A stretch of 64,000 nucleotides of DNA from Clostridiales bacterium (GTDB taxonomy: Bacteria; Bacillota; Clostridia; Christensenellales; Aristaeellaceae), in the NCBI GenBank assembly GCA_015056325.1, contig SVGL01000001.1:248001-312000 (forward strand). Direction: 5' to 3'. Position 1 is the stretch's first letter. The number at the start of each line of letters is the position of its first letter. The notes under the pieces are model-generated. The model searched no databases. It had not been told where the DNA came from and was given only the letters and a program-made list of their open reading frames with translations. Positions 34,419-37,171 of the stretch are shown piece after piece. The position numbers were made by a program, and so were the translations under genes.

Positions 34419-35636
34419 ATGGGGACTGTAATCATCATTGGCGGAGGCGCGGCAGGTCTTGCGGCAGCCATTGCGGCTGCTGAATGCGGCGATGGAGTGA
34501 CGATTCTGGAGCGCATGGATCGGGTCGGCAAGAAAATCCTTGCGACTGGCAATGGCCGCTGCAACCTGATGAACACCGGTGAATGGCGTTTCCCTGGCGG
34601 TAGTGCGCTCGCGTGTGCAGTGCTTGATCGTTGCGGCGTGGTGGAACAAACCCGGTTCTGGGAGCATATCGGCCTTCGTATGCGACAGGAGGATGGCGGA
34701 CGGGTGTATCCCGTCAGCGGCATGGCCTCCACTGTACTGGATGCACTGCGCTTTTCCGCGGAAGCTCTCGGCGTGGAGATCCTGACCGGCGTGCATGTCA
34801 GCGGTGTATTCAAGGCGCGGCATGGCTGGACGGTCATGGCGGGTGAGGACAAGTGGAAGGCCGATCGAGTGATTGTGGCGGGTGGCGGCTGTGCCCAGCC
34901 TAAGCTCGGCAGCGATGGCAGTGCTTGGTCGTTGCTGACGACACTGGGACACAAAATGGTAGAGGCAAGGCCTGCGTTAACGCAGATTGTTACAGATACA
35001 GCGCCCATCAAGGGCTTGAGCGGCGTACGCGCGCGGACGAGCGTTACGATCACCAATGGGCACATGGAAAAGTATGCTGAATCCGGGGAGCTGCTCTTTG
35101 CGGATTACGGTGTAACAGGCGTATGCGTGATGCAGTGCGCCCGTTATGCAGCGCCGGAGGATACGCTCCATATCAACCTGATCCGGGCAATGGGGATTGA
35201 TTCTGCGGACGAGATGCGTAAAGAACTGGATCGGCGACGTGGCGAATGGGGGATGCGCCCCCAGAGTGACCTGTTCACGGGGCTGTGTGTGCCTAAGCTT
35301 GCTCAGGCAATCTTTCAGGCGGCTGGATTGCAATGCAGTCAACGCTTTACTTGTGGGGAACTATCTTCTGCTGCGATTGATCGGTTGGTAGCGGCGGCAG
35401 AGGATTTCAAGCTGAATATCCGCGGTGTCAAAGGCTTCGACAGTGCACAGGTGACGGCAGGCGGCATTTCGACAGGAGCGTTCAAGCCTGAAACGATGGA
35501 ATCGCTGTTGGCACCGGGTGTACATGCTGCTGGTGAGGTATTGGACGTGGATGGAGATTGCGGCGGTTTCAACCTGATGTTTGCCTTCGGAAGCGGCATT
35601 CTTGCCGGCCTGAATGGCAGAGAGACGCCTTGGTAA
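34419..35636 (+). CDS. HI0933-like FAD-binding protein (aminoacetone oxidase family)
   Basis: A 405-residue flavoprotein. VIIIGGGAAGLAAAIAAAECG is the dinucleotide-binding loop, GKKILATGNGRCNLMN is the second conserved block of the HI0933/YhiN family, and the C-terminal TAGGISTGAF and GEVLDVDGDCGGFNLMFAFGSG complete the FAD site. Length fits. The family includes enzymes proposed to oxidise aminoacetone, but its physiological reaction is not settled. Single-gene unit with promoter and terminator. Confidence 0.92.
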   Translation: MGTVIIIGGGAAGLAAAIAAAECGDGVTILERMDRVGKKILATGNGRCNLMNTGEWRFPGGSALACAVLDRCGVVEQTRFWEHIGLRMRQEDGGRVYPVSGMASTVLDALRFSAEALGVEILTGVHVSGVFKARHGWTVMAGEDKWKADRVIVAGGGCAQPKLGSDGSAWSLLTTLGHKMVEARPALTQIVTDTAPIKGLSGVRARTSVTITNGHMEKYAESGELLFADYGVTGVCVMQCARYAAPEDTLHINLIRAMGIDSADEMRKELDRRRGEWGMRPQSDLFTGLCVPKLAQAIFQAAGLQCSQRFTCGELSSAAIDRLVAAAEDFKLNIRGVKGFDSAQVTAGGISTGAFKPETMESLLAPGVHAAGEVLDVDGDCGGFNLMFAFGSGILAGLNGRETPW

Positions 35637-35640
35637 TATC

Positions 35641-35681
35641 GAACCCGATTGATACGTGTGTCAATCGGGTTCTTGCTTTTT
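35641..35681 (+). terminator. strong intrinsic terminator
   Basis: GAACCCGATTGA pairs perfectly with TCAATCGGGTTC over an 8-base loop, followed by TTGCTTTTT. Confidence 0.95.
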
Positions 35682-35701
35682 CAGGCAGAGCGTGCTATAA
35701 T
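35673..35701 (+). promoter_or_regulatory. sigma-A promoter of the CNNM gene
   Basis: TTGCTT, which overlaps the T tail of the previous terminator, and TATAAT are 17 bases apart. It predicts a leader of about 180 bases. Confidence 0.7.
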
Positions 35702-35707
35702 ATAGTT

Positions 35708-35880
35708 TGTGTAAATCTATGTATGTGGAAGGAGTGACGGCTTCGTGGATCAGCCCCCTTGTAGTCCTGTGCCTGCGACGGCCGTGATGTGCTTCCGCAG
35801 GCGATGAAAGCACCGGGTGATGCCCGGGAAAGCAGCTGGTTCTGCCACTGTGCCGGGACCGGCTGACTATGAAAGGACTG
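35708..35880 (+). promoter_or_regulatory. structured leader RNA of the CNNM gene, riboswitch or attenuator candidate
   Basis: AGTCCT (35763-35768) pairs with AGGACT (35874-35879) and encloses three hairpins: GCCTGCG/CGCAGGC (35771-35802), CCGGG/CCCGG (35813-35827) and a 10-base-pair helix (35833-35842 with 35856-35865), forming a four-way junction. ATGAAAG occurs twice at junction strands. The closing helix contains the AAAGGA ribosome binding site. A further hairpin can form at 35729-35760. I cannot match it to a known riboswitch class by eye. Confidence 0.6.
35745..35807 (+). CDS. possible 20-codon leader peptide, proline-rich
   Basis: GTG 35745 lies 10 bases after AAGGAG (35729-35734) and opens a 20-codon frame ending at TGA 35805. 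The peptide reads MDQPPCSPVPATAVMCFRRR, with four prolines including a PP pair and three terminal arginines. A ribosome on it would melt the closing helix and first hairpin of the structured leader. Short Pro-rich leader peptides control some Mg2+ transport genes in other bacteria; that this is one is inference. Confidence 0.4.
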   Translation: MDQPPCSPVPATAVMCFRRR

Positions 35881-35890
35881 CTTGATTTCC

Positions 35891-37171
35891 ATGACGCCCG
35901 ATTTATGGATCCTTGTTGCCATACTCTTTGTGTGTGTGGCGCTCTCAGCTTTCTTCTCTGCTTCTGAGACGGCTTTCACCTCCGTCAACCGCGTTAAGCT
36001 CAAAACGCTGATGCAGAATGGCAGCAAGCGTGCCAAGCTTGCTCTGACCCTGACCGACGACTATGATCGGCTGATCACCACCATCCTGATTGGCAACAAT
36101 ATTGTGAACATTGCGGCTTCGTCGCTCGCGACGAGCCTGTTTCTTGTGTTGTTGAACAACCAGGCGAATCTGGCTACGACAGTCTCCACGGTGGTGATGA
36201 CGGTCGTGATTCTGATCTTTGGCGAAGTCTCTCCCAAGGCGATTGCAAAGGAATCGCCCGAGAGCCTGGCGATGACCTTTTCGCCGGTGTTGCGGATGCT
36301 GTGCACCATCTTCACGCCCTTTGCGGTTCTGTTTACCCTGCTCAAAAAGATGCTTACCAAGGTCATTAAAACCAGCGAAGAAGAGGAGTCCTTCATTGAG
36401 GAAGAGCTGATGACCATGGTGGACGAGGCGCAGTCTGAGGGTGATATGGACGCCCACGAGGGTGAGCTGATTCGTTCTGCCATCGAGTTTAACGATGACC
36501 GTGATGTGATTTCCATTTTGACCCCTCGTGTGGATGTCACTGCGATTGAAGATACGGCCACCATGGAGGAGGCGGCTGAACTTTTCCGGGCCAGCGGATA
36601 CTCCCGTGTGCCTGTTTACCATGAGGACATGGATCACATTGTCGGCATCTTGAATGAGAAGGACTTCTACCTGCAGAAGCACCACGGGTGTACGGATATT
36701 ACCGAGATTATGAAGCCTCCGGTATACGCACCGACCACGCTGAAGCTGTCCAAGCTGCTCAAGCTCATTCAGGCACAGAAGACGCATTTGATCATCGTGC
36801 TTGACGAATTCGGCGGTACGGAAGGCATCGTCACCATGGAGGATGTGCTGGAAGAACTGGTGGGCGAAATCTACGACGAGCACGACGATGTGGAGCAGGA
36901 CACTGTCGAAATGGACGATGGTTCCCGCCTGGTGGACGGCAGCATGCAGCTGTCTGAGCTTCTGGATATGTTCGGTGTAGAGGATATCTACAATGCTGAA
37001 ACAGTTGGCGGCTTTGCGGCTGAGGTTCTGGGGATTATTCCCTTTGTTGGTTCTGTCTTTGAGACAGACGAGATTCGCGGCCTGGTTACCCAGATGGATA
37101 AACGCCGGGTGATGCAGGTTCGAGTATGGAAGAAGGAAGCGCCGATGAGCGGTGCATCTGAAGATGCTTAA
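35891..37171 (+). CDS. CNNM/CorC-type transporter with CBS domains
   Basis: A 426-residue membrane protein of the hemolysin C/YrkA/YugS group. A DUF21 (CNNM) membrane domain (about 1-190) with SAFFSASETAFTSVNR and GNNIVNIAAS is followed by a CBS pair (about 210-335, TPRVDVTAIED and VLDEFGGTEGIVTMEDVLEELVGEI) and a CorC_HlyC domain to the end. CNNM/CorC proteins move Mg2+ or related cations. ATG 35891 is 13 bases from AAAGGA, a little long; TTG 35882 is too close. The ribosome binding site is inside the leader's closing helix. Confidence 0.9.
   Translation: MTPDLWILVAILFVCVALSAFFSASETAFTSVNRVKLKTLMQNGSKRAKLALTLTDDYDRLITTILIGNNIVNIAASSLATSLFLVLLNNQANLATTVSTVVMTVVILIFGEVSPKAIAKESPESLAMTFSPVLRMLCTIFTPFAVLFTLLKKMLTKVIKTSEEEESFIEEELMTMVDEAQSEGDMDAHEGELIRSAIEFNDDRDVISILTPRVDVTAIEDTATMEEAAELFRASGYSRVPVYHEDMDHIVGILNEKDFYLQKHHGCTDITEIMKPPVYAPTTLKLSKLLKLIQAQKTHLIIVLDEFGGTEGIVTMEDVLEELVGEIYDEHDDVEQDTVEMDDGSRLVDGSMQLSELLDMFGVEDIYNAETVGGFAAEVLGIIPFVGSVFETDEIRGLVTQMDKRRVMQVRVWKKEAPMSGASEDA

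Follow-up and report, generated by a model that had tools for sequence, protein, structure and literature searches.

A short leader ORF before CNNM-type transporter genes of Clostridia: a candidate ribosome-based switch for magnesium export

Acidic or proline-rich N-termini destabilize translating ribosomes, more so at low Mg2+, and this is how the leader peptide MgtL, with its EPDP motif (E2, P3, D4, P5), raises the expression of mgtA (PMC11282234). MgtL of E. coli and Salmonella is encoded by a short ORF with an acidic/proline start ahead of a Mg2+ transport gene, and the fate of the ribosome on it decides expression (PMC11282234). The gene in that case encodes an importer, the terminator is Rho-dependent, and ribosome drop-off turns mgtA on. 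A second Salmonella leader, MgtQ, is a small ORF that needs its acidic residues Asp2 and Glu5 to control mgtB, with stem-loops controlling translation of the Mg2+ transporter (PMC8092293). CorC-domain proteins work against an excess of Mg2+: in Salmonella the expression of corC and mgpA goes up at high Mg2+ by a regulatory mechanism that has been called unclear. CorC (YbeX) itself has a ribosome-destabilizing start, and this start, or the upstream leader YoaL in the case of mgpA/yoaE, is the proposed mediator (PMC12421838).

Here we analysed a 64,000-nucleotide stretch of the genome of an uncultured Clostridiales bacterium (the window), in which a short ORF that is kept in relatives and has a separate ribosome-binding site lies directly upstream of a CNNM/CorC-type cation transport gene. 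Leaders of this kind share with MgtL and MgtQ the small ORF, the acidic or proline residues and the Mg2+ transport gene downstream. They differ from MgtL in preceding putative exporter genes, in ending at an intrinsic terminator or possibly masking a start region, in a predicted sign that is opposite, and in having no sequence homology to it beyond composition; MgtQ is set apart by its importer target, intergenic position and induction at low Mg2+. YoaL, with 52 amino acids, a 13-nt overlap with yoaE and the start MDRHRRHF, has no acidic or Pro-Pro run, and for CorC and YoaL no terminator type is described, unlike the acidic CNNM leaders. The acidic-type relatives resemble trp/his-type attenuators in that the leader ORF ends at an intrinsic terminator. 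However, they contain no codon run for one product amino acid, the window leader has no terminator, and translation to the end of the ORF is predicted to switch the gene on. The M-box Mg2+ riboswitch (RF00380) likewise acts from a 5' leader in Mg2+ homeostasis, but has no match in the window. RAPP-type arrest peptides, which carry Arg-Ala/Gly-Pro-Pro near the C-terminus and lie upstream of protein-localisation genes (PMC12992588), were considered and set aside, the Pro-Pro of the window leader being at residues 4-5, after Asp-Gln and before a CNNM gene. We think it fairly likely that a leader-peptide switch, rather than a ligand-binding riboswitch, controls the CNNM gene.

The leader ORF of the window

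The leader follows a flavoprotein gene of the TIGR00275 family (34419-35636), whose 3' end is directly followed by an intrinsic terminator (35641-35672) and then by a promoter (table 1). The TTGCATTTT..TATAAT segment of this promoter is kept at the same place in the leaders of relatives, and the promoter call bears out the leader of about 180 bases that the sequence-only reading had predicted. The downstream gene, which had been read as a putative Mg2+/cation transporter, indeed matches the Pfam CNNM (2.4e-52), CBS and CorC_HlyC domains. Comparison of relatives placed its conserved start at the ATG; the TTG at 35882, in frame in the window, falls in another frame in several of them. The gap between the AAAGGA ribosome-binding site and the ATG (35877-35891) is unusually long at 13 nt, and stays at about 13-15 nt in relatives.

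Table 1. Features of the CNNM leader region in the window, and two relatives with terminators.
Feature	Position	Strand	Remarks
Promoter	35673..35701	+	-35 TTGCTT 35673-35678, 17 nt, extended -10 TGCTATAAT, -10 hexamer 35696-35701; scan
Ribosome-binding site AAGGAG of leader ORF	35729..35734	+	AAGGAGTG invariant in 14 homologous leaders
CGTGGA around leader start codon, 5' arm of consensus start-start helix	35744..35749	+	RNAalifold consensus of 14 leaders
Leader ORF MDQPPCSPVPATAVMCFRRR	35745..35807	+	GTG start, TGA stop 35805-35807
GTAGTCCT, 5' arm of helix over CNNM ribosome-binding site	35761..35768	+	Leader codons 6-8; fold; in 6/14 leaders
AGGACTGC, 3' arm of the same helix	35874..35881	+	Overlaps AAAGGA 35872-35877; fold
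TCCATG, 3' arm of start-start helix	35888..35893	+	Includes CNNM ATG 35891-35893; RNAalifold consensus
CNNM/CorC-type membrane protein gene	35891..37171	+	CNNM, CBS pair, CorC_HlyC domain
L242 leader MDSDECDSNTNTELFFYYLLL			Acidic type with terminator
L175			Acidic type with terminator

The sequence-only reading had missed a conserved short ORF inside the leader, of which the AGTCCT strand of its proposed helix forms codons 7-8. We compared the leaders that precede this CNNM gene across the genus and in one sister genus. Apart from the promoter, only two blocks of them align: AAAGGAGTG..TTC-RTG-GAT-CAR-CCY-CCY and, further on, GAAAGGA..TG.TTGAT.TCCATG. The former consists of a ribosome-binding site and the start of an ORF of 20-34 codons beginning Met-Asp-Gln-Pro-Pro, as in the window. 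Within the genus the variable bases of codons 2-5 are third positions (CAR, CCY, CCY), with the exception of one leader (L002) in which the codons GAG TAT give Met-Glu-Tyr-Pro-Pro. The start codon is GTG or ATG among relatives, and the ORF from RTG is still open in the two leaders (L056, L057) whose spacer before the start is one base shorter. In other genera the leader starts M-[DE]-x(0,1)-P-P, written with other codons. The MDEPP leaders of genus g25 (L087, L089, L092) also all end in RYRS* (AGG TCC TGA), which may be an anti-ribosome-binding-site stretch or a functional C-terminus of the peptide.

In 8 of the 14 same-genus relatives the ORF crosses the CNNM ribosome-binding site (e.g. GAA AGG ACT GCT TGA), and its stop codon lies immediately ahead of the CNNM start or overlaps it. 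The window ORF ends 84 nt short of that start, so stop-start coupling does not apply there. Its own start, D2-Q3-P4-P5, combines Pro-Pro with one acidic residue only and is therefore not a textbook destabilizing sequence.

Acidic and Pro-Pro leaders before CNNM genes

When one genome from each of 85,462 species was scanned for the exact pattern, 30 matches were returned. Each of the 14 from Clostridia, Clostridiales or Christensenellaceae records is a short ORF ahead of a CNNM gene; for one of them (L127) the stored stretch stops short of that gene, which is present at the same place in G004:C18. The remaining matches, mostly from Streptomyces, have no CNNM nearby. A short MDQPP ORF in another family (L035), also with no CNNM nearby, was counted as chance.

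Protein searches at family, order, class and phylum level then yielded 174 CNNM upstream regions, in which we counted as a leader any ORF that starts Met-[Asp/Glu] and has a second acidic residue or Pro-Pro. Such ORFs were present in 55 of the 174 regions, against about 3 expected in shuffled sequence, and were not detected in the other 119. The excess was seen at genus/family level (36/84 regions, shuffle mean 1.6), in the order (7/33 versus 0.2) and in the class (10/29 versus 0.3); at phylum level it was not significant (2/28 versus 0.7). Only 2 of 117 antisense-strand controls and about 5 of 251 upstream regions of other genes (about 2%; 13 of 259 before eight CNNM genes were taken out) carried an ORF of this type. 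The acidic starts include MDSDSSD, MDSDECD, MDSEDGD, MDSDDSD, MDEDGYPAE, MEADTAGD, MDGDSC and MDEDIGDE, and most other CNNM leaders have two or more acidic residues.

A pattern chosen independently of CNNM, MD-[SG]-D-[SC], had four matches in 248 genomes of the order. Three lie before CNNM genes, one of which (at L219) is a different CNNM paralogue; at the fourth, a lipoprotein gene seems to begin in another reading frame. A looser class-level pattern was only partly specific, with 3 of 17 matches being CNNM leaders and most others the starts of long proteins. The acidic leader MDSDSNNDPANDNRPYFSYPLLL (L219 in G114:C81, from locus position ~995 onward) is followed by a strong intrinsic terminator and a different, TlyC-like long-form CNNM paralogue, so the arrangement extends beyond the orthologues of the window gene. 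On these comparisons, the leader ORF and its linkage to CNNM are well supported. In six loci without a detected leader (L226, L230, L231, L241, L086, L204) the CNNM protein has an acidic N-terminus of its own (MDSDSIT, MDSDSMG, MDSSDVL, MDTGDLS, MDDSHSS), a feature also reported for CorC of E. coli. The idea that leaderless CNNM proteins compensate in this way (MDSDS..., MDTGDLS...) was dropped, the difference from CNNM genes that have a leader not being significant (p = 0.12).

The two kinds of leader differ in what lies behind them. An intrinsic terminator precedes CNNM in 23 of 32 loci with acidic-type leaders, against 2.7 in shuffles, and in only 1 of 23 with Pro-Pro leaders. The window leader belongs to the Pro-Pro group and has no intrinsic terminator between leader ORF and CNNM, hence not the layout of a transcription attenuator. 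In all 23 terminator-type acidic leaders the stop codon of the ORF is found within or past the hairpin, or no more than 15 nt ahead of it, so that a ribosome completing the ORF should keep the terminator from folding. Where such ORFs run into the 5' arm of the terminator they often encode Ala-Tyr-[Leu/Pro] (GCATATC/GCATACC; L114, L175, L199, L207, L210, L234, L237, L240, L247), which makes the arm itself coding. In the open-access literature searched (subscription papers and preprints not covered) we came across no account of these leaders, and Rfam lists no family for them. The CNNM leader peptides of Clostridia are a large and apparently undescribed set; the principle of ribosome-based leader control is already known.

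Through its Pro-Pro codons the leader could instead respond to some other translational cue (for example the activity of EF-P, the supply of proline, or polyamines), with stalling rather than drop-off setting the output. Polyproline translation depends on EF-P (PMC11282234), and the CNNM protein of the window also scores against the model of the polyamine exporter PaeA, below that model's cut-off. Further, a ribosome held at codons 4-5 would presumably cover the codons that can pair with the CNNM ribosome-binding site. We nevertheless consider this reading unlikely. Most acidic-type leaders have no N-terminal Pro-Pro and yet precede the same gene family, and CNNM/CorC proteins have been tied to Mg2+ efflux (PMC12421838).

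Folding and pairing of the leader RNA

The sequence-only reading had described a four-way junction, in which a helix over the CNNM ribosome-binding site encloses three hairpins. The helix can form: AGTCCT (35763-35768) can pair with AGGACT (35874-35879), the pairing extends to 8 bp (35761-35768/35874-35881), and its 3' strand overlaps the AAAGGA site. The three hairpins appear in the fold of 35725-35902 (MFE -75.0 kcal/mol, z -3.0, a stability reached by 1 of 200 shuffles), but the interval to which they had been assigned, 35708-35890, has a different MFE structure without the junction (z -2.2). Conservation did not bear the junction out either. The hairpins 35813-35827 and 35831-35868 lie in columns missing from 10-12 of the 14 homologous leaders, the AGTCCT/AGGACT helix is restricted to one subgroup, and the inner hairpins fail the covariation check among the 14.

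The only helix to keep covariation support among these leaders, and that weak, joins the two start regions. In the RNAalifold consensus CGTGGA, codon 3 and CCT of the leader start pair with TCCATG and AGG of CNNM, with one compensating position (G-C in five leaders, A-U in five of the 14); covariation over the whole structure was only modestly above shuffles. When the two start regions were given swapped partners these bound about equally, and the low specificity lends a specific, co-evolved duplex only weak support. We regard pairing of the leader start with the CNNM start region as plausible from the alignment. Such pairing constrains the same bases as the ORF, so that coding and pairing constraints are not fully separable within the genus alone.

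The conserved CGTGGA/TCCATG and CCT/AGG pairing would suit a control by RNA alone, in which GTGGATCA..CCYCC is kept for pairing with the CNNM start, as a masking helix or thermosensor, and the peptide is incidental. This appears improbable to us because the changes in codons 2-5 within the genus are mostly in third positions, because M-[DE]-x-P-P persists with other codons in other genera, and because the acidic leaders with terminators precede the same gene family and need no such pairing. The outcome of the partner swap also counts against it.

The sequence-only reading had further suggested a new class of riboswitch, in which a metal or metabolite would stabilize the junction and so hide the ribosome-binding site. 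We judge this very improbable, even though the window sequence taken alone folds stably with the site paired. Two of the three hairpins are missing from most homologues, no unpaired, aptamer-like core is kept, and the conserved bases fall in the ORF. The sequence-only reading had seen no cobalamin B12 box, M-box core or yybP-ykoY motif; in a search against all Rfam 15 families at gathering and relaxed thresholds, none matched. An Rfam scan of 20 related loci found only a tRNA, and the M-box was absent from all 12 genomes of the genus (G000 and 11 others); it is present in G090, from another family of the order. With neither junction nor aptamer core conserved, and a conserved block that consists of ribosome-binding site, GTG/ATG and Asp-Gln-Pro-Pro with synonymous changes, a new ligand-binding class is unsupported. 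Of the earlier proposal, what stands is that the 5' leader is structured, can conceal the ribosome-binding site of CNNM and probably controls expression of the gene.

A candidate leader-peptide switch for magnesium export

In the leader-peptide switch that we favour, translation of the leader ORF probably switches on the magnesium-exporter gene, as judged from sequence comparison. The ribosome would be the sensor, initiating at GTG 35745. In untranslated RNA, leader codons 1-3, together with codons 6-8 in the subgroup of the window, would pair with the ribosome-binding site and start of CNNM and keep the gene off, and a ribosome on the first leader codons would open the masking helix. In the 8 of 14 same-genus relatives whose ORF runs to the CNNM start, the two genes could in addition be coupled. 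Asp-Gln-Pro-Pro, or the Asp/Glu-rich starts found elsewhere, would make leader translation fragile. At low Mg2+ ribosomes would leave early, the helix (window) or the terminator (acidic-type relatives) would form, and no exporter would be made. At high Mg2+ the leader ORF would be translated and the exporter expressed. The sequences themselves show the ORF with its conserved start, the association with CNNM, the potential for pairing and, in relatives, the placing of the terminators; what we infer is translation of the ORF, its control over CNNM, and the role of Mg2+ as the signal. Ribosomes stalled at codons 4-5 would likewise open the helix, in which case the sign would be the reverse, and the direction is therefore less sure for the Pro-Pro type of the window than for the terminator type.

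A constitutive coupling, in which the leader merely raises CNNM translation and senses nothing, would fit the ORFs that end just before or over the CNNM start, but is hardly probable, as it leaves both the acidic or Pro-Pro N-terminus and the terminators at the ORF end of relatives unexplained.

Beyond the window, we lean slightly towards a class-wide system of Clostridia in which the ribosome senses Mg2+ for Mg2+ export, through interchangeable acidic or Pro-Pro leaders that are wired to an intrinsic terminator or to the gene start. Taken together, the MgtL, MgtQ and CorC/mgpA precedents suggest a mirror image of MgtL, opposite to it in sign. How bacteria sense excess Mg2+ and induce exporters is largely open, and the CNNM leaders offer a concrete, testable candidate present in dozens of genera, as well as many natural sequences for the study of fragile translation starts. 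If the proposed switch is true, ribosome-based Mg2+ sensing would extend from the import genes of enterobacteria to the export genes of Clostridia.
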